This document shows, in pieces, positions 2,594-19,645 of a DNA stretch of 37,976 bases. A program made the position numbers and the translations under genes. This stretch comes from Hyphomicrobiales bacterium. GTDB taxonomy: Bacteria > Pseudomonadota > Alphaproteobacteria > Rhizobiales > Aestuariivirgaceae. The notes under the pieces are model-generated. The model was not told where the DNA came from. It made no database searches and was given only the letters and a program-made list of their open reading frames with translations. How positions within the stretch are numbered: position 1 is the stretch's first letter; each line of letters opens with the position of its first letter. The stretch is taken from assembly GCA_026990765.1 (NCBI GenBank), contig JALXCV010000134.1:1-37976 (forward strand), written 5' to 3'.

Positions 2594-4171
2594 CTATTTC
2601 CTGATTATACGCCCGTCTGTATAAGGCTTGTAACCACCGGTGCTGGCCATATATTCAGCCAGAACATCGGCAAGGTCAGGGCCGAAATCATAGACATGTT
2701 GCGCATTGACGAACATCTTGTAGCCATCACCGCCCCCACGAACATAATTATTGGATACAACCGAATATAGTTTTGTGGCTTTTATCTCGTTCCATTTGCC
2801 ATCTTCAAATACCAAAACCTGTTTAATGCGGCCCTTGTTGGGTGCAACTGACGGGTCCCAGGTGAATTTAAGACCTGCAACTTGCGGGAATCGACCTTTT
2901 ACGTCTTCAACCTGACTGACACCGTTCTCCAGTGCCGCTACCAGGGTGGCACCGGTTACCTGAAAGGTGGACAGGGTATTCTGGAAGGGTAGCACGGTCA
3001 GTATCTCGCCCATGGTCACATCACCCTTGTCGATTGAGGCGCGCAGACCGCCGGAATTGGCAATGGATATGGTTACTCCCTGATTTTTTACCCTGTCCAG
3101 CATGGCATCGGCTACCAGATTGCCCATTTCGCATTCCTTCACCCGGCAGTCTTTGGAATTGCCATTAATCGGGGCAAGCGCAGTGGCCACCACCTTTTTG
3201 CGGATTTTTTCAAGTGGTACAGCAGCTGCTGCAATGCGTTGCTTTACAGCTTCATTTTCTTCAACCTTTGCATCCATTATAATCGGTTCGCCGGTGGCTG
3301 AAGTAATATTGCCCTTGTCATCAAAGGTGATATTCAGCTCGCCAAGGAATTTGCCATAGGCGTAAGCTGAAACAATGGCGGTGCTGCCGACCATGGTGGG
3401 GTAGGGACCTTCTGCCCTTTTGGATTTGTTGGACAGATAGGTGTTGGTGTGACCGCCGACTATGACATCAACACCTTTGGTGCTGGCAGCTACTTTCTTG
3501 TCAACATTATAGCCTGAATGGGATAGTACAATGATCTTGTTGACGCCCTTGGCGGCAAGCTTGTCGACTTCTCCCTGAACGGCAGCTGATGGATCTGTAA
3601 AGATAATGTTTTTGCCGGGGCTGGATAATTCGTCTGTATCCTGGGGGGTAAGACCAATCAGCCCGAGTTTTTCCCCACCGCGTTCGATGATGGTGGATTT
3701 GGCCAGTTTTCCGGCCAGCAAGGGTTCGCCCGAGACATCTGCATTGGACATCAGGACCGGAAATTTCACATTATCCATAAAGCCGCGCAGAACCTCAGGA
3801 CCGTCATCAAATTCATGATTGCCGACAGTCATGGCGTCATAGCCAAATCTGTTCATCATTTCAGCGGCAAGTTTGCCCTTGTAATAGGTATAGAACAAGG
3901 TTCCCTGAAACTGGTCGCCACCATCAACCAGAATGGTGTTGTTTGAGTGCTTGCGTGCAGCTGCAATAGCCGTTGCCAGCCGGGCTGAACCGCCAAAGCA
4001 TTTGCCTTTTTCATTCCTTTTGGCAGAGCAGCCAGAATCATATTTGCTTATCGGTTCAAAGCGTGAATGAAAATCATTGGTATGCAAAATTGTCAGCTGA
4101 TAGTCAGCCAGGGCTGCGCTTGCGGTAATAGTGCAAAACCCTGCGGCAAGAATTATTCGTGAAACAGACAT
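2594..4171 (-). CDS. Secreted 5'-nucleotidase / UDP-sugar hydrolase family metallophosphoesterase (UshA-like)
   Basis: Periplasmic enzyme of 525 residues predicted to release phosphate from nucleotides. An N-terminal signal peptide ends near ALA-DYQ. The calcineurin-like catalytic domain follows with all its metal motifs: ILHTNDFHSRFEP, VDGGDQFQGT, VGNHEFDDG, LSHSG and VGGHTN. The C-terminal 5'-nucleotidase domain carries IANSGGLRASIDKG, LPFQNTL and GGGDGYKMF, which form the substrate pocket. I chose ATG 4171 because AGGGAG lies seven bases before it and it begins exactly at the signal peptide; an in-frame extension to 4237 lacks both. It lies beside phosphate transporters, fitting scavenging of nucleotide phosphate. 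The exact substrate (AMP, UDP-glucose, others) is not determined by sequence. Confidence 0.9.
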   Translation of the reverse strand: MSVSRIILAAGFCTITASAALADYQLTILHTNDFHSRFEPISKYDSGCSAKRNEKGKCFGGSARLATAIAAARKHSNNTILVDGGDQFQGTLFYTYYKGKLAAEMMNRFGYDAMTVGNHEFDDGPEVLRGFMDNVKFPVLMSNADVSGEPLLAGKLAKSTIIERGGEKLGLIGLTPQDTDELSSPGKNIIFTDPSAAVQGEVDKLAAKGVNKIIVLSHSGYNVDKKVAASTKGVDVIVGGHTNTYLSNKSKRAEGPYPTMVGSTAIVSAYAYGKFLGELNITFDDKGNITSATGEPIIMDAKVEENEAVKQRIAAAAVPLEKIRKKVVATALAPINGNSKDCRVKECEMGNLVADAMLDRVKNQGVTISIANSGGLRASIDKGDVTMGEILTVLPFQNTLSTFQVTGATLVAALENGVSQVEDVKGRFPQVAGLKFTWDPSVAPNKGRIKQVLVFEDGKWNEIKATKLYSVVSNNYVRGGGDGYKMFVNAQHVYDFGPDLADVLAEYMASTGGYKPYTDGRIIRK

Positions 4172-4354
4172 GGTCAGGCTCCCTGATATTTTTGGACTAT
4201 TTGTCCATACGATCACAGAATTTTGTTTGCTTGGCAATAGTAATCAACGCGATTGTGAGCAATTGTCGGGCTGCCAATTCTATCATGGTGGCCCGTATTT
4301 GAGGATTTACCGGCAAATCATATTTTGCGAATATGTCTAAATGTTTGCGGTAAA

Positions 4355-4413: not shown

Positions 4414-5466
4414 TCAGATAACCACCTGATTAAAGACATTTTGCAAGATAAACAGGCCGATAAAGCAGACAAGGGCTGCCATGACCGGGGTTACAACCCA
4501 GCCAAGCACAATGCGTCCCAAAGTTCCCCACTTGATACTGGACAGACCGCCTCTTACAAGGGAAATGCCGATAACGGCACCTACAACTGCCTGTGAGCTG
4601 GAAACCGGCACCAAAGGAATGGTTGGCAGGCCGTGTGACAACAGCCATTGTTCCAGATCATGTGATGCAAACAGGAACAGTACCAGTGAATGTGAGGTTA
4701 CCACGACCAGAGCAGCAATGGGTGAAATTCTGCCAAGATTTGAACCAACTGTGGTCATGACCCCTTTGGAGTAGGTCATGACACCAAGGGCGATGGCAAG
4801 CCCACCAGCAAGCATCAGCATCTGGGTGCCGGACAGAAATTCAATACCGTTGATGGATACAGATGAGAAAGGTTTGGCGGGAACAAATACCCCGACAACA
4901 TTGGCGATATTATTGGCTCCAAGTGAATAGGCGCCAAATGCTCCGGCAGCTATCAGGGCAAGGCGTGTGTAGGCATCAGCACGCAACAGGTGAATCTTGT
5001 TCATTCTGGAGGCAGTTTTTACTGATTTGAACATGATTACAGCAATAATGGCTGCCAGTACCGGGCAGATAAACCATGTGCTGAGAATGGTGGTCAAGAT
5101 ACCCAGATCAGTAGGTGATCCTGAAAACATGTTCCAGCCTACAATTCCGCCTACAATAGCCTGGGTGGTTGATACTGGCAGACCTGCCTTGGTCATGGCA
5201 TAAACCGCACTGGCGGCTGCAAAAGCGGTCATAAAGGCGCCGGGCAGGGCTGAGATGGCACCAAGCTTGCCCAGGGTGTGAGTGGTGCCGCCACCACTTA
5301 TAATAGCACCAATTATTACAAACACCGAGGTAATGATCGCGGCGGTTATCCATGGTACCATACGGGTTCCAACAGCAGTTCCAAAAACATTGGCAGCATC
5401 ATTGGCACCAAGTGCCCAGCCAAGAAACAGACCGCTGGTCAGGAAAAACATGATAAGGGGATCCAT
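4414..5466 (-). CDS. pit: Low-affinity inorganic phosphate transporter, PiT family
   Basis: Inner-membrane phosphate permease of 350 residues, the short form common in alphaproteobacteria. The first PHO4 repeat begins FFLTSGLFLGWALGANDAAN and the second has SLGANNIANVVGVF; GANDxAN is the hallmark of the family. Further hallmarks are VSTTQAIVGGIVG and VSSSQAVVGAVIG, and roughly ten hydrophobic helices are visible. The gene lies 13 bases after the DUF47 gene, the standard orfA-pit operon. In Sinorhizobium meliloti, orfA-pit supplies phosphate when it is plentiful and is repressed by PhoB on starvation, while phoCDET is induced. Here the phoCDET-like operon lies divergently next door. Function is confident; regulation is by analogy plus the Pho box at 6254-6271. 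Confidence 0.93.
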   Translation of the reverse strand: MDPLIMFFLTSGLFLGWALGANDAANVFGTAVGTRMVPWITAAIITSVFVIIGAIISGGGTTHTLGKLGAISALPGAFMTAFAAASAVYAMTKAGLPVSTTQAIVGGIVGWNMFSGSPTDLGILTTILSTWFICPVLAAIIAVIMFKSVKTASRMNKIHLLRADAYTRLALIAAGAFGAYSLGANNIANVVGVFVPAKPFSSVSINGIEFLSGTQMLMLAGGLAIALGVMTYSKGVMTTVGSNLGRISPIAALVVVTSHSLVLFLFASHDLEQWLLSHGLPTIPLVPVSSSQAVVGAVIGISLVRGGLSSIKWGTLGRIVLGWVVTPVMAALVCFIGLFILQNVFNQVVI

Positions 5467-5479
5467 TGCTCAAATGCCC

Positions 5480-6136
5480 TTATACTGTACGCTTGATAGC
5501 ATAAATTGCCAGCCGGTCAGCCACATCTTCAGCCCAGTCTGCTATATTGTCGATGGATTCAGCAACATCGCGCAATTGCAGCTTTTGTGACAAGTCCAGA
5601 TCGGAAGCAAACAGCTCGCTCTTTAAATTGGAGCCAACCTTGTCGGCCTCTTTTTCATAAAACATGACTGCGTGGTTGTGTTCGGATACTGAATGAGGTG
5701 AATAAAAGAATGCTCTGGCGCTCAAGATTACCGCCTCAACCGATTTGACGGCATGTGATGAAAGGCGCTTCATGTCATTGCGATATTTGGACGGGATTTG
5801 CGGGCGCTCATTTTCCAGTCGCCACAGGGCACCCTGGAACAGGCCAAGCAACTGATCCAGATTTTCAATCAGTCCCAGAACATCGCCGCGACTTTCTGGG
5901 ATAAGAGTGTGCAAATACAACTCACGCTCAATATCTCGGCGCAGATTGTCTGCATCAGTCTCCATGGAATTGACCTTGTCGAGCATGGAGCGGTAATCGT
6001 CGGTATGCCCGTGCTTGAGGTATTCCTTTACAGCCATGCGAAACAGCATGGCTGATTCAGAGATGTTTTTCAAAAAATTATCGATTTGCTGTTCGAGGTC
6101 TCTGGTGCGCCCAAAGACGCGTAGTTTCTTAAACAT
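5480..6136 (-). CDS. DUF47 (PhoU-like) phosphate transport regulator, OrfA of orfA-pit
   Basis: Cytoplasmic all-helical protein of 218 residues, the normal size for the DUF47/TIGR00153 family. It is related in fold to PhoU and almost always sits upstream of pit. Recognisable segments are an N-terminal VFGRTRDLEQQIDNFLKNIS, a central FLIENLDQ-type helix (VLGLIENLDQLLGLF) and a C-terminal SIDNIADWAEDVADRLAIYA. It probably controls or assembles the Pit permease. It is first in the operon, and its leader contains a consensus TTGACA promoter (6208-6235) with a Pho box farther upstream. No strong ribosome binding site is visible before ATG 6136. Confidence 0.88.
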   Translation of the reverse strand: MFKKLRVFGRTRDLEQQIDNFLKNISESAMLFRMAVKEYLKHGHTDDYRSMLDKVNSMETDADNLRRDIERELYLHTLIPESRGDVLGLIENLDQLLGLFQGALWRLENERPQIPSKYRNDMKRLSSHAVKSVEAVILSARAFFYSPHSVSEHNHAVMFYEKEADKVGSNLKSELFASDLDLSQKLQLRDVAESIDNIADWAEDVADRLAIYAIKRTV

Positions 6137-6207
6137 ATCTAGGTTTTTTCTTTAGTTGTTTTTTCCTGTACATATTCCAACAGTGAAGAGATTGGCGGTA
6201 AAAATTC

Positions 6208-6235
6208 ATTCCAAAGTGATTGATTTTAATGTCAA
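6208..6235 (-). promoter_or_regulatory. Sigma-70-type promoter for orfA-pit
   Basis: On the minus strand a perfect -35 TTGACA (6235-6230), a 16-base spacer and TGGAAT (6213-6208, four of six matches to TATAAT) lie about 70 bases before the DUF47 start. The opposite strand of this -35 reads TGTCAA, which contains the TGTCA core of a PhoB half-site. Confidence 0.5.
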
Positions 6236-6253
6236 TTCATTTACTGTGTATCC

Positions 6254-6271
6254 ATGTCACATATGTGTCAT
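6254..6271 (+). promoter_or_regulatory. Pho box (PhoB-binding site)
   Basis: ATGTCAC-ATAT-GTGTCAT is two direct-repeat heptamers separated by four bases, matching the CTGTCAT-N4-CTGTCAT layout of PhoB sites with TGTCA kept in both halves. It lies in the divergent region between orfA-pit (leftward) and phnD (rightward), 113 bases before the phnD start, oriented towards phnD. A TACAAT hexamer at 6295-6300 might be the -10. Confidence 0.65.
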
Positions 6272-6278
6272 GTTTAGT

Positions 6279-6301
6279 GATTGTAGGACGTTTCTACAAT
6301 C
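6279..6301. promoter_or_regulatory. Perfect dyad next to the Pho box
   Basis: GATTGTAG (6279-6286) and CTACAATC (6294-6301) are exact reverse complements around a seven-base spacer, seven bases after the Pho box. On the plus strand it is followed by a run of A, not T, so it is not a terminator for that strand. A second regulator's operator or an early-transcript hairpin are both possible. Confidence 0.45.
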
Positions 6302-6384
6302 AAAAAATGAAAAAATATTAATATGGACTCGCTACGGTAGTGTAGTTTTTGAAATATTGGTGATAATTTAACAGGGAGAAAAAC

Positions 6385-7362
6385 ATGAGAAAACTAGTAA
6401 AAAAACTTACCTCAGTAGCACTGGGTGCACTTGTGGTTGCGAGTATCGCATCACTATCACCGGTGAGTGCTGAAGAATGTCATCGCGGCAGCCTGGACAA
6501 GACCTATTGTGATCGCGATTTTGACCTTGTGGCTGATTTGCCGCTGGATGAAAGCAAGTGGGTTAATCCCGATACGCTGATTTTTGCCTATACACCAGTT
6601 GAAGACCCGGCAGTTTATGCAGGTATCTGGGGCGGCTTTGTCAAGCATATGGAAAAAGTAACCGGCAAAAAGGTTGTTTTCTTCCCGGTTCAGTCAAATG
6701 CGGCACAGCTTGAAGCCATGCGTTCGGGCCGTTTGCATGTAGCCGGTTTCAATACCGGGTCAAATCCGATTGCGGTTAATTGTGCAGGTTTTGTACCATT
6801 TACCATGATGGCCAAGAATGACGGCAAGTTTGGTTATGAAATGGAAATCATTGTACCAGCTGACAGTGATATCAAGGGGCCGGCAGACCTTAAAGGTCGA
6901 ACCCTTGCCTTTACCTCTCCAACTTCCAATTCAGGTTTCAAGGCACCTTCGGCAATTCTCAAAGGTGAATTCAACCTGGTAAAGGATCGCGATTTCAAGG
7001 CAGTTTTCTCAGGCAAACACGACAATTCAATCCTTGGTGTTTATAATGGCGATTATGAAGCAGCCTCGATTGCCAATTCAGTATGGACCCGGATGGAACG
7101 TCGCGGCGTTATCAAACCTGGCAAGATCAGGTCAGTTTACAAATCCCAGACATTCCCGACTACCGGTTATGGTCATGTCTACAATCTGAACCCGCTGGTG
7201 GTTGCCAAAGTAAAACAGGCTTTCCTTACCTATAAATGGGACGATCATTTCAAGAAGGAATTCAAGAAAGCTGACCGGTTCATTTCGATCACCTATAAAT
7301 ATGACTGGTCGGTTATTCGCGGCATCGATAAAGCCAATGGCGTGAGCTATGAATGCAAATAA
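6385..7362 (+). CDS. phnD: Phosphonate/phosphate ABC transporter periplasmic binding protein (PhnD/PhoD-like)
   Basis: Periplasmic ligand-binding protein of 325 residues. A signal peptide ends near VSAEEC at about residue 30. The mature protein has the PhnD-type fold: LIFAYTPVEDP strand, PVQSNAAQLEAMRSGRLHVA, and the ligand-anion loop FTSPTSNSGFKAPS, equivalent to the Ser/Thr-rich loop that binds the phosphonate head. AGGGAGA before ATG 6385 is a strong ribosome site. It is the first gene of phnD-phnC-phnE-phnE and is preceded by a Pho box. No C-P lyase genes (phnGHIJKLM) occur in the window, so the ligand may be phosphate or phosphite rather than alkylphosphonates, as for PhoCDET of S. meliloti. 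Four Cys in the mature protein could form disulfides. Confidence 0.9.
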   Translation: MRKLVKKLTSVALGALVVASIASLSPVSAEECHRGSLDKTYCDRDFDLVADLPLDESKWVNPDTLIFAYTPVEDPAVYAGIWGGFVKHMEKVTGKKVVFFPVQSNAAQLEAMRSGRLHVAGFNTGSNPIAVNCAGFVPFTMMAKNDGKFGYEMEIIVPADSDIKGPADLKGRTLAFTSPTSNSGFKAPSAILKGEFNLVKDRDFKAVFSGKHDNSILGVYNGDYEAASIANSVWTRMERRGVIKPGKIRSVYKSQTFPTTGYGHVYNLNPLVVAKVKQAFLTYKWDDHFKKEFKKADRFISITYKYDWSVIRGIDKANGVSYECK

Positions 7363-7460: not shown

Positions 7461-8273
7461 ATGTTGCGTCTTGAGAATGTTTTTAAACGCTATAAAACCG
7501 GTGATCTGGCTTTGAAAGATGTTACGCTGGAAATACCTGATGGGCAGGTAATTGCGTTAATTGGTCCTTCCGGTGCCGGCAAGTCGACCCTTATCAGATG
7601 TGTCAACCGGTTGGTCAATCCAACCAGTGGCAAGATATTTCTGGGTGATACCGAGCTTACATCGCTTTCATCGGGTGCATTGCGCAAGGCGCGCCGGCGC
7701 ATGGGGATGATTTTTCAGGAATATGCGCTGGTTGAGCGTCTGACAGTCATGGAAAATGTCTTGTCAGGACGACTTGGATATGTTGGCTTCTGGGCCAGCT
7801 GGTTTCGCAAATTCCCCAAAAAGGATGTGCAGGAAGCCTTTCGTCTGCTTGACCGGGTTGGCCTGCTGCATATGGCTGACAAGCGGGCAGATGAATTGTC
7901 CGGTGGCCAGCGCCAGCGTGTCGGTATCTGCAGGGCCTTGATCCAGAATCCCGAATTATTGCTGGTTGATGAGCCGACCGCCAGCCTTGACCCCAAAACC
8001 TCCCGCCAGATCATGCGGTTGATCAATGAATTGTGCAAAGAGCGTGGACTGGCTGCAATTATCAATATTCATGATGTTCTGCTGGCGCAGATGTACTCAC
8101 AAAGGGTCGTAGGGCTAAAAGCCGGGGAGCTTGTGTTTGATGGACCACCTGAAGGTTTGGTGCCGGAAGTTCTGACAGATATTTATGGTGAGGAAGACTG
8201 GGAAGCCACGATCGAGGAAGTTGATGAGGATGATGAAGAACTCCTTGTTGAGGAAGCCGAGGTTGTCGCATGA
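7461..8273 (+). CDS. phnC: Phosphonate/phosphate ABC transporter ATP-binding protein
   Basis: ABC ATPase of 270 residues that powers the PhnDCE importer. Visible motifs: Walker [11 protein letters not shown]-loop IFQEYALV, the PhnC-typical insertion [17 protein letters not shown], signature [10 protein letters not shown], Walker [14 protein letters not shown], and switch His in NIHD. I chose ATG 7461 (preceded by GGGGAA) instead of an upstream in-frame start at 7425, because the protein then starts [11 protein letters not shown] as PhnC proteins do and the earlier start lies within the hairpin's T-rich tail. Oddity: the last 27 or so residues are strongly acidic (runs of Glu and Asp), an extension I do not know from typical PhnC. 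The stop overlaps the phnE start (ATGA). Confidence 0.92.
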
Positions 8274-9100
8274 GTGAGGTATCAGCAGAAAAGAAGTTTC
8301 CTGACCGCTGGAAAAAGCCACCCTTTATTAGCAATCCCACCTTGCGCTGGCTGCTTTATGTGGCAGTTGCAGTGTATTTTGCCACAGCTTTCGGGACTAT
8401 GGATATTGACTGGCAGCGGGCATGGGAAGGACTGCCTCGCGGGGCGGAATTTCTGGCGTCATTTTTCCCGCCATCACTTACTGATTCAAATGGTGTGCAT
8501 GTTACCGGCACCATTATTGATGGTATTCTGGATTCGATCTGGATGGCGATATTGGCAACAGTTGCCGGCATTGTGTTGTCAGTTCCGGTCGGACTTGGCG
8601 CGGCGCGTAATCTGTCTCCGATGCCGGTTTATCTGTTCTGTCGTTCGATAATTGCGGTATCACGGACATTCCCGGAAGTCATTCTGGCAATTTTTGCCGT
8701 GAAGCTGTTTGGCTTTGGTTCGTTTGCAGGTCTGGTGGCGCTTTCGATTGGCACAATCGGGTTTTTTGCCAAATTGCTGGCAGAAGATATCGAGACTTCT
8801 TCCACTTCCCAAAATGAAGCTGTCAAGGTTACCGGGGCCAACTGGTTCCAGTGGGTGAATTATGCAATCCAGCCACAGGTGATGCCGCGTATGATTGGTC
8901 TGGCCATGTACCGGCTTGATATCAACTTCCGTGAAAGTGCGGTGGTGGGTATTGTTGGTGGTGGCGGAATTGGGGATACGCTGAAAACCTCGTTTGAGCG
9001 CTATGATTTTTCCATTTCGGCAACCATCCTTATAGTAATTATCGTGATTGTGATTTCGCTTGAATATTCATCAGGCTATTTGAGAAAGTGGGTGCAATAA
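8270..9100 (+). CDS. phnE: Phosphonate/phosphate ABC transporter permease (first PhnE)
   Basis: Inner-membrane permease of 276 residues with about six helices. The start overlaps the phnC stop by four bases. A cytoplasmic N-terminus is followed by a first helix ([17 protein letters not shown]), a periplasmic stretch, then the binding-protein-dependent transport core. The coupling (EAA-type) loop reads [24 protein letters not shown] in part and is followed by [17 protein letters not shown], the typical PhnE ending. It pairs with the second permease at 9100, giving a heterodimeric channel as in PhoE/PhoT of S. meliloti. Confidence 0.9.
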
Positions 9101-9915
9101 TGCCTATTATAGATAAACCGGATGGTCCTGTATGGAAACGTCGCAAAACACCGGTGCAATTACTGATCTGGTTTGGCTGGATGGTAGCAATTGCAATAAC
9201 GGTCATGGCCTGGAAGCGTATTGCAGCCAATGATCTTTTATGGGTGTATATGCCAACAGCCGGGCAACAGGCCGTGGACATGATGCAGCGGATGATACCA
9301 CCAAACTGGTCCTATATGGACAAATTGTGGAAGCCGGTCTGGGATACTTTGAATATTGCCACTATTGGTTCTGTCATGGCGATGGCTATTGCCGTTCCTG
9401 TGGCTTTTGCAGCTGCCAGAAATACTACTCCCCACAAGCTGGTGCGGGCCTTTGCCCTGCTTATCATTGTCTCGACCCGTTCGGTTAATTCACTGATCTG
9501 GGCATTGGCGCTGGTATTTATTCTGGGACCTGGAGTGCTGGCCGGCACGCTGGCAATTGGTCTGCGCTCAATTGGTGGTTGCTCAAAGCTGCTATATGAA
9601 GCGATTGAGGAAATAGACCATAATCAGGTTGAGGCTATTGAGGCAACCGGTGCTTCCAGGCTGCAGCAGATGGCTTACGGGATTCTTCCACAGGTAATGC
9701 CTACCTTTGCCGGGGTCGGGGTGTTTCGCTGGGATATCAATATTCGCCAGTCAACCATTTTGGGGTTGGTCGGGGCGGGCGGCATCGGGTTGCAGCTTTC
9801 CAGTTCGATGAATACGCTGGCCTGGACACAGGTCTCAATGATCCTGCTGGTCATTTTAGGCACAGTGGTTATTTCTGAAACCGTTTCAGCCAAGGTGCGA
9901 CACGCAATTATCTGA
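9100..9915 (+). CDS. phnE: Phosphonate/phosphate ABC transporter permease (second PhnE, PhoT-like)
   Basis: Second membrane subunit, 271 residues from ATG 9100, which shares its A with the preceding TAA stop (TAATG), a typical coupling arrangement; a GTG at 9088 in the same frame is the alternative. It has an N-terminal helix (LLIWFGWMVAIAITVMAW), then a transport core with coupling loop EAIEATGASRLQQMAYG and NIRQSTILGLVGAGGIG. It clearly derives from the same family as the upstream permease, and the two probably form the heterodimer. The operon seems to end here; a hairpin follows at 9960-9983. Confidence 0.9.
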   Translation: MPIIDKPDGPVWKRRKTPVQLLIWFGWMVAIAITVMAWKRIAANDLLWVYMPTAGQQAVDMMQRMIPPNWSYMDKLWKPVWDTLNIATIGSVMAMAIAVPVAFAAARNTTPHKLVRAFALLIIVSTRSVNSLIWALALVFILGPGVLAGTLAIGLRSIGGCSKLLYEAIEEIDHNQVEAIEATGASRLQQMAYGILPQVMPTFAGVGVFRWDINIRQSTILGLVGAGGIGLQLSSSMNTLAWTQVSMILLVILGTVVISETVSAKVRHAII

Positions 9916-18820: not shown

Positions 18821-19645
18821 ATGCGAAAGATTATTGCAGGACTATTTTGGCTGTTAATGGCAGGCCCGGTTCTGGCCCAGGTGGTGGAAGGTGATGATGC
18901 ACCATTGCGGTTTGCCCGGTTTGAGGCTGAAGATGGCAAACATTTCGGGTTTCTGTCATTTGGTGGCCTGCACCAGCTTGATGGAGATTTTCTGGATATA
19001 AATTCAAAACCCACTGGCTGGGGTTATGATCTGCATGGTGTCAGGCTGCTGGCACCGTTAAGGCATGGAAAGATTATCTCTGTCAGCAATAATTATCGCT
19101 CACAAAAGGCAGGGCCGGAGTTTGAACAGGTATTTGTTGAAAATATCCTTGGGCCAGATGCACCCCTGCCGGTCAACAAGGGGAGCTTTGGCGGTGAGAT
19201 GGTGGTGGTCATGGCGAAAGCAGCGCATAATGTCAGCGCCAGCAAGGCTGGTGAGTATATTTACGGGGTTGCCTGCGGGATCATGCAATATTCCGGTTCG
19301 CAAATGCGCCATATTGCGATTGGCCCTTATGTGGTGCCGGGTTTGAGCAATAACCGCTTGCATATGCAGCTGGTGGTAAATGGCAAAATCTTGCGCAAAA
19401 CATCATCGCGCCAGATGAAACGCAATGTTGAGCAGCTTGTTGCATGGATTTCAAAACAGATTGATCTGGAGGCTGGCGATATGATTTTTACCGGCGCTCC
19501 CGGCAGGCTGGTGGAGGCAGGCCGCGGTGATGTTATCGAAGTATCGCTTGAAGGTGTGGGTACACTGAAAACCATGATTGGTGACAGGACTTGCAAGGGA
19601 AATAACGGGGATAATCCTATTGCGCCCTGCAGGAAATCAAGATGA
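18821..19645 (+). CDS. Exported fumarylacetoacetate hydrolase-fold protein with degraded metal site
   Basis: A 274-residue protein from ATG 18821. Residues 1-19 form a signal peptide (MRKIIAGLFWLLMAGPVLA, then Q), which is unusual because FAH-family enzymes are normally cytoplasmic. The rest aligns with the FAH C-terminal fold: SNNYRSQ, GGEMVVVMAKAAHNVSAS, the LVVNGKILR strand, AWISKQIDLEAGDMIFTGAP and GRGDVIEVSLEGVGTL. The metal-binding ExE is reduced to GGE, and the Asp of the usual NDVSARD segment is replaced (GIMQYSGSQ), so ordinary divalent-metal hydrolysis is doubtful. In-frame TTG 18794 and GTG 18812 are other possible starts. The gene is divergent from xerC and convergent with proV. 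The function is unknown. Confidence 0.7.
   Translation: MRKIIAGLFWLLMAGPVLAQVVEGDDAPLRFARFEAEDGKHFGFLSFGGLHQLDGDFLDINSKPTGWGYDLHGVRLLAPLRHGKIISVSNNYRSQKAGPEFEQVFVENILGPDAPLPVNKGSFGGEMVVVMAKAAHNVSASKAGEYIYGVACGIMQYSGSQMRHIAIGPYVVPGLSNNRLHMQLVVNGKILRKTSSRQMKRNVEQLVAWISKQIDLEAGDMIFTGAPGRLVEAGRGDVIEVSLEGVGTLKTMIGDRTCKGNNGDNPIAPCRKSR

Follow-up and report, generated by a model that had tools for sequence, protein, structure and literature searches.

An exact Pho box likely drives phnD in a Hyphomicrobiales draft genome in which no PhoB was found

An exact Pho box lies in the 248-nt gap between the divergent genes orfA and phnD of a Hyphomicrobiales bacterium, and it likely drives phnD. Taken as a whole, the explanation that we consider probable is that a PhoB-type regulator reads this box and thereby activates the phnD promoter. 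A winged-helix response regulator of that type would bind the two half-sites, spaced 11 bp apart, under phosphate shortage; once bound, it would turn on the ABC importer phnDCEE, and at other loci of the genome, sites of this kind would switch on two further transporters, a Na/Pi symporter and a second PiT. The orfA-pit pair would then lie head-to-head upstream of an older phnD promoter, an arrangement that occurs in this genome alone among those examined. This explanation draws on the site itself, the families of the genes, counterparts of the site in sister species, two near-sites before transporters and the rarity of the arrangement; from these we infer the binding, the response to phosphate, the direction of regulation and the substrate.

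The window, by which we mean the whole 37,976-nt stretch of DNA that was analyzed, had previously been interpreted from its letters alone. That sequence-only reading placed orfA-pit leftward and phnDCEE rightward of the gap, and in our profile scans the families of these genes fit the calls. The features of the locus are as follows.

2594..4237, minus strand: 5'-nucleotidase-like gene behind pit (PF02872, PF00149); its best upstream box score is only 7.0
4414..5466, minus strand: pit, PHO4 family phosphate transporter (PF01384, 192 bits)
5480..6136, minus strand: orfA, DUF47/PhoU_div protein (PF01865, 72 bits; TIGR00153, 62 bits, below the cut-off of 104)
6230..6235, minus strand: TTGACA hexamer, the proposed orfA -35, at chance level; its plus strand reads TGTCA at 6230-6234
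6254..6271, plus strand: Pho box ATGTCAC-ATAT-GTGTCAT, an exact double half-site read towards phnD
6278..6302, no strand assigned: perfect 9-bp inverted repeat TGATTGTAG-7-CTACAATCA, just past the Pho box, holding TACAAT (6295-6300)
6385..7362, plus strand: phnD, phosphate/phosphite/phosphonate binding protein (TIGR01098, 217 bits, above the cut-off of 112; PF12974)
7461..8273, plus strand: phnC, ATP-binding protein, ATG at 7461 (TIGR02315, 328 bits, above cut-off)
8270..9100, plus strand: phnE1, permease (TIGR01097, 259 bits, above cut-off)
9100..9915, plus strand: phnE2, permease, ATG at 9100 (TIGR01097, 279 bits, above cut-off)

The phnDCEE genes set a binding protein, an ATPase and two permeases in one row. 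The binding protein scores over the cut-off of TIGR01098 and under that of the PhnD equivalog TIGR03431, and its nearest solved relative is 9lf9 (E 4e-117), followed by PtxB. No C-P lyase genes lie directly beside phnDCEE; the neighbors scanned were orfA-pit, the 5'-nucleotidase gene and an acyltransferase/ligase gene. Positions 1-2099 hold a QseB/PmrA-like response regulator, a sensor-like gene that runs off the edge of the window and a small protein that matched no family, and no link between these regulator genes and the Pho box was seen.

The Pho box has the sequence and the coordinates that the sequence-only reading gave it, as the letters confirm. It is oriented towards phnD, 113 nt from the start of that gene and 117 nt from the start of orfA, and it follows the operator pattern of two direct 7-nt repeats like CTGTCAT placed 4 nt apart. 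Dinucleotide shuffling of the gap produced an exact double site in only 6 of 20,000 trials, which sets the box above chance. Its score of 11.25 makes it the sole strong box in the window; the description of it as the only good one holds in that sense, but a second site, inside an ORF at 19038, also passes the score cut-off (9.75). The boxes of PhoB regulons share this layout of 7-nt half-sites with 4 nt between them and TGTCA cores 11 bp apart, as described in extracts of PMC3131613 and PMC4415409, and the case at hand differs from them in that no PhoB was found in the window's draft genome. The box is also nearly palindromic (8 of 9 pairs), but we reject a palindromic operator because the counterparts in the sister species retain the 11-bp direct repeat only.

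The inverted repeat just past the box is a candidate operator, mRNA stem or promoter part. Its RNA fold (6274-6312) reaches -11.4 kcal/mol with a z of -4.8, and its core pattern was found solely in the window's own copies among the 261 loci searched. We considered and discarded a role as terminator: a T-run is absent on both strands, and the terminator scan did not list the repeat. The phnD leaders of the sister species carry hairpins different from this one, and two overlapping terminator-like stems lie on the plus strand inside orfA, at 6105-6123 (2 found versus 0.1 expected in shuffles).

Three genomes of the same genus as the window's, G001, G002 and G003, are here called the sisters, and their phnD upstream regions carry TGTCAC-AAAA-nTTnCA repeats 80-82 nt before the alignment-estimated start. 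The counterparts are clear in G003 (GTGTCACAAAATTTTCAT) and G002 (TTGTCACAAAACTTTCAC) and weak in G001 (CTGTCACAAAAGTTACAA), where this is not the top site of the phnD upstream and another scores slightly higher. A TTGT stands 24 nt after the beginning of TGTCAC in the sister counterparts and 26 nt after it in the window. Because the sister upstreams carry these counterparts, we take the Pho box to be a putatively ancestral element of the phnD promoter. The sister phnD genes are not beside orfA; each follows a same-strand AMP-ligase gene, immediately in G001 and G003 and after three intervening main ORFs in G002. Contig C90 of the window's genome unites the AMP-ligase gene with the two-component genes, the flanks of phnDCEE in G001 and G002, but lacks phnDCEE itself, which seems to have moved. 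Control of phnD by a box is not general. We removed repeats, upstreams shorter than 150 nt, hits of at most 40% identity and hits that began at residue 45 or beyond; of the 88 phnD upstreams left, 13 had a forward box at p <= 0.02 (the window included, and several of the 13 being close relatives), versus 5 with a reverse one.

Sites of this kind also precede phosphate-acquisition genes elsewhere in the genome. We searched the window's genome with the pattern TGTCAYN5TGTCAY, allowing at most one mismatch, and recovered 68 sites versus 17 for the reversed pattern, a control that coding bias makes imperfect. By a simple rule in which a site counts as coding if covered by an ORF of at least 100 residues, 57 of the 68 are coding and 11 fall between ORFs, and the five other exact matches in the genome are all inside ORFs. 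Seven of the 11 inter-ORF sites lack a near start codon on the same strand, and the remaining four have a possible one within 125 nt.

Site before phnD: 113 nt from the start, exact
Site before the Na/Pi symporter: contig C72, 115 nt from the start, one mismatch (NF037997 above cut-off, PF02690)
Site before the second PiT gene: contig C98, 124 nt from the start (169 nt to the first ATG), one mismatch (PF01384, 366 bits)
Site before a bacterial globin: contig C90, L127:10422-10438, 84 nt from the start, one mismatch (PF01152)

The presence of three phosphate transporters among the four sites with near starts is far from chance. Three hits in five 200-nt phosphate-transporter upstreams have a rough Poisson probability of ~1e-6, a figure that assumes ~10% non-coding DNA and counts the five phosphate-transporter promoters known to us, not a full inventory. 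A like motif, CTGTCATCAAACTGTTACATAAGTGTCAT, stands between the PhoR-like and PstS-family genes of G002, which bears PhoB. The globin with a one-mismatch site adjoins a GAF plus winged-helix protein and a CreBC-like two-component pair.

These sites bear directly on whether the Pho box is functional at all. A relic of a PhoB regulon since lost, or a random match, would agree with the failure to find PhoB and with the preponderance of genome near-matches inside ORFs (57 of 68); we nonetheless regard it as very improbable, given that the double site before phnD is perfect and outscores its counterpart in PhoB-bearing G002 (11.25 versus 10.25) and that two further sites precede phosphate transporters. 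Because the sites appear to be maintained, they argue that some protein would read them.

The identity of that protein turns on a puzzling set of absences. No PhoB was found in the window's draft genome, rated 97% complete, where the best match reaches 205 bits against a cut-off of 296. PstB among the matches listed reaches 235 bits at best, below its cut-off of 343; no stand-alone PhoU was found, and PhoU domains occur only within a Na/Pi cotransporter. G001 and G003 (96% and 91% complete) likewise gave no PhoB over cut-off and no PhoU match, nor, among the matches listed, any PstB over cut-off; G002 has PhoB, PstB and PhoU. The absence of Pst and Pho is defined here by searches for PhoB, PstB and PhoU alone. 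Throughout the order, PhoB (E <= 1e-75) is present in 361 of 397 genomes and PstB (E <= 1e-95) in 365 of 397. Since the sites are present yet PhoB was not found, a phosphate-type regulon seems to survive in this organism, with PhoB either missing from the assembly or replaced by a substitute reader.

At 97% completeness, loss and an assembly gap could each account for the missing genes. We put at about even the chance that PhoB, PhoR and Pst are present in the organism and missing from the draft, with an ordinary PhoB reading the box. The sites look maintained rather than decayed, PhoB and PstB are present in most of the 397 genomes of the order, and in G002 the PhoR-like, PstS-family, pstB, phoU and phoB genes occupy one run of ~7 kb, so a single gap could remove them all. 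Against this stand the completeness of the genome itself, the two of three sisters that also lack PhoB, PhoU and, among the matches listed, PstB, and the PhoB matches listed for the window's genome, among which no PhoB fragment is recognizable. More tentatively, the lineage may truly have lost PhoB and Pst, leaving another regulator of the OmpR type to read the boxes, and the CreBC-like pair of contig C90 would be the first to consider (CreB 216 bits, below 273; CreC 184 bits, below 356). PhoB, PstB (among the matches listed) and stand-alone PhoU were not found in three of the four genomes of the genus, a pair of this type is convergent with phnDCEE in G001 and G002, and the one-mismatch site before the globin gene is close to the pair on C90. 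CreC is the protein also called PhoM. In E. coli, PhoM phosphorylates PhoB, according to a title in the reference list of PMC4415409. The candidate fits by place only, and it is kept as a candidate on that footing. The DNA-binding domain of the C90 CreB-like protein is identical to that of G002 PhoB at 31 of 100 positions, no closer than other regulators (23-38 among the full-length regulators fetched; 36-38 for four that we take to be ChvI, C62 and two QseB types). In three of four genomes the promoter of the pair itself shows TGC[AG]CA repeats at 11-bp spacing, a motif unlike the Pho box, and G002 possesses both PhoB and a CreBC-like system. Such pairs lie at L126:2757-5020, L125:8152-10433 and L127:7128-9394.

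The sequence-only reading had proposed something more ambitious, a reciprocal switch in which PhoB at a single site both activates phnD and, by spreading over the orfA -35, represses orfA-pit. We consider this unlikely. The 248-nt gap is common to both operons, and there is a precedent in Sinorhizobium meliloti, whose orfA-pit, a pit accessory gene plus pit, resembles that of the window in setting a DUF47 gene before a PHO4-family transporter. Extracts of two papers report that S. meliloti orfA-pit is repressed on phosphate starvation, with a box immediately before the start of translation (PMC3131613), and that the regulation of pit is reciprocal to that of the Pst and Pho systems (PMC8829014). 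The box of the window is placed differently, 117 nt from the orfA start and pointing to phnD.

TTGACA, the proposed orfA -35, and the TGTCA beneath it are present as described, but they are no better than chance: 34% of the 20,000 gap shuffles contained TTGACA on one strand or the other, and 68% one or more copies of TGTCA/TGACA. By these frequencies the Pho box stands out, and the orfA -35 with its half-site does not. The -10 hexamers behind TTGACA, at spacers of 14-20 nt, match TATAAT at 1-4 of 6 positions, the best being TGGAAT at 16 nt. The single site returned by a promoter scan, where chance predicts 1.3, is not the TTGACA but a minus-strand TACACA-16-TAAAAT at 6250-6223. The half-site is also out of register: the TGTCA under TTGACA (6230) is 25 bp from that of the box (6255), where an 11-bp register needs 22 or 33, and the stretches that are in register, at 6243, 6232 and 6221, match TGTCA at 0, 0 and 1 of 5 bases. 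Among 17 orfA upstreams, one has a forward box and one a reverse box at p <= 0.02, and the window accounts for the latter. The phnD half of the shared-site switch is supported by the orientation of the box, its sister counterparts and the other transporter sites; the orfA half is left unsupported, with a chance-level -35 and a half-site out of register. That the Pho box also represses orfA is possible but unsupported, and any effect on orfA of a protein at the box would be secondary and is unproven.

The distribution of the two genes also tells against the switch. In a draw of 397 genomes from the order (OrfA at E <= 1e-30, PhnD at E <= 1e-40), OrfA occurs in 14 and PhnD in 81, and all 14 OrfA genomes have PhnD (Fisher 8e-11); these genomes come from 5 genera and therefore do not represent 14 events. 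Only the window's genome has both genes on one contig. A further four OrfA genomes come from the 60 nearest relatives: G001 and G003, which have PhnD, and G025 and G035, which gave no PhnD match. The last two led us to reject OrfA and PhnD as an obligate pair. Across all 18 OrfA genomes, PhnD is present in 16, apart from orfA in 15 of these and adjacent in one, the window's. None of 56 named phnD loci, 51 of which have more than 1,500 nt upstream, has orfA or pit beside phnD; among all fetched loci, the window's own copies are the only ones to combine phnD with orfA or pit, and no orfA match was found on plasmids. The comparison across related genomes that the sequence-only reading called for thus recovers counterparts of the box before sister phnD genes but the orfA/phnD pairing in one genome only. 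The 17 other genomes in which OrfA was found lack the head-to-head layout, which is therefore not conserved wiring, and the compact linked circuit is likewise unsupported; PhoB itself was not found. The layout appears to be a rearrangement confined to one genome rather than a conserved switch.

Where orfA-pit came from is less clear-cut. The window's proteins are identical to those of the sisters at 55-57% for OrfA, 69-72% for Pit and 79-83% for PhnD, and OrfA is equally distant from other families (57-60% identity). Simple vertical descent of orfA-pit was set aside, given that OrfA and Pit are less identical to the sister proteins than PhnD is; trees placed OrfA weakly, so acquisition or fast divergence may account for this. 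In G001 and G002, orfA-pit forms the tail of a phnW-phnA-phnY-orfA-pit row for 2-aminoethylphosphonate breakdown (L181:6387-12114 and L182:383-6085), a position that differs from S. meliloti orfA-pit and that counts against the reciprocal switch. The window's genome gave no match to phnA, and all three sisters have one. Phosphonate use with phosphate export has been described in marine bacteria (extract of PMC8316502). The place of orfA-pit in the phosphonate row hints at phosphate export or homeostasis, and a role of Pit in export is what we infer from it.

The phnDCEE importer itself has known relatives. The S. meliloti phoCDET genes are a PhnDCEE-type system, a four-gene importer likened to that of the window by description. 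They belong to the group most upregulated by phosphate stress (extract of PMC8829014). The phn1-type phnDCEE of the pSinA arsenic island has the same gene order, a PhnD 58% identical to the window's and, as its best site before phnD, a partial box only; there phoB-pstSCAB-phoU and ars genes lie beside phnDCEE, whereas in the window no pst or phoB genes are nearby or found, and phnDCEE faces orfA-pit. Among phn1 loci described in an extract of PMC3834237, one is arranged phnDCEE' without related genes nearby. Open-licence papers yielded none on pit and phnD divergent around a Pho box, none joining orfA-pit, PhoB and phoCDET, and none on a lack of PhoB. The importer with its box is a known kind of system, the facing orfA-pit is a local arrangement, and the absence of PhoB is the real question.

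For the genus of Anderseniella sp. CSMAG_107, we advance with considerable reserve a scenario in which lineages lost PhoB, PhoU and PstSCAB, while that of the window kept a Pho-box regulon (phnDCEE, Na/Pi symporter and PiT) read by another regulator, PhnDCEE being a phosphate-family ABC importer. If the draft is right about PhoB, this would be regulatory rewiring, the phosphate-starvation sites having outlived both their textbook regulator and the Pst sensor-transporter. If PhoB was only missed, the locus would be an ordinary Pho-controlled importer with an unusual neighbor. Either way, it is a caution against inferring a conserved circuit from the head-to-head layout of one genome.
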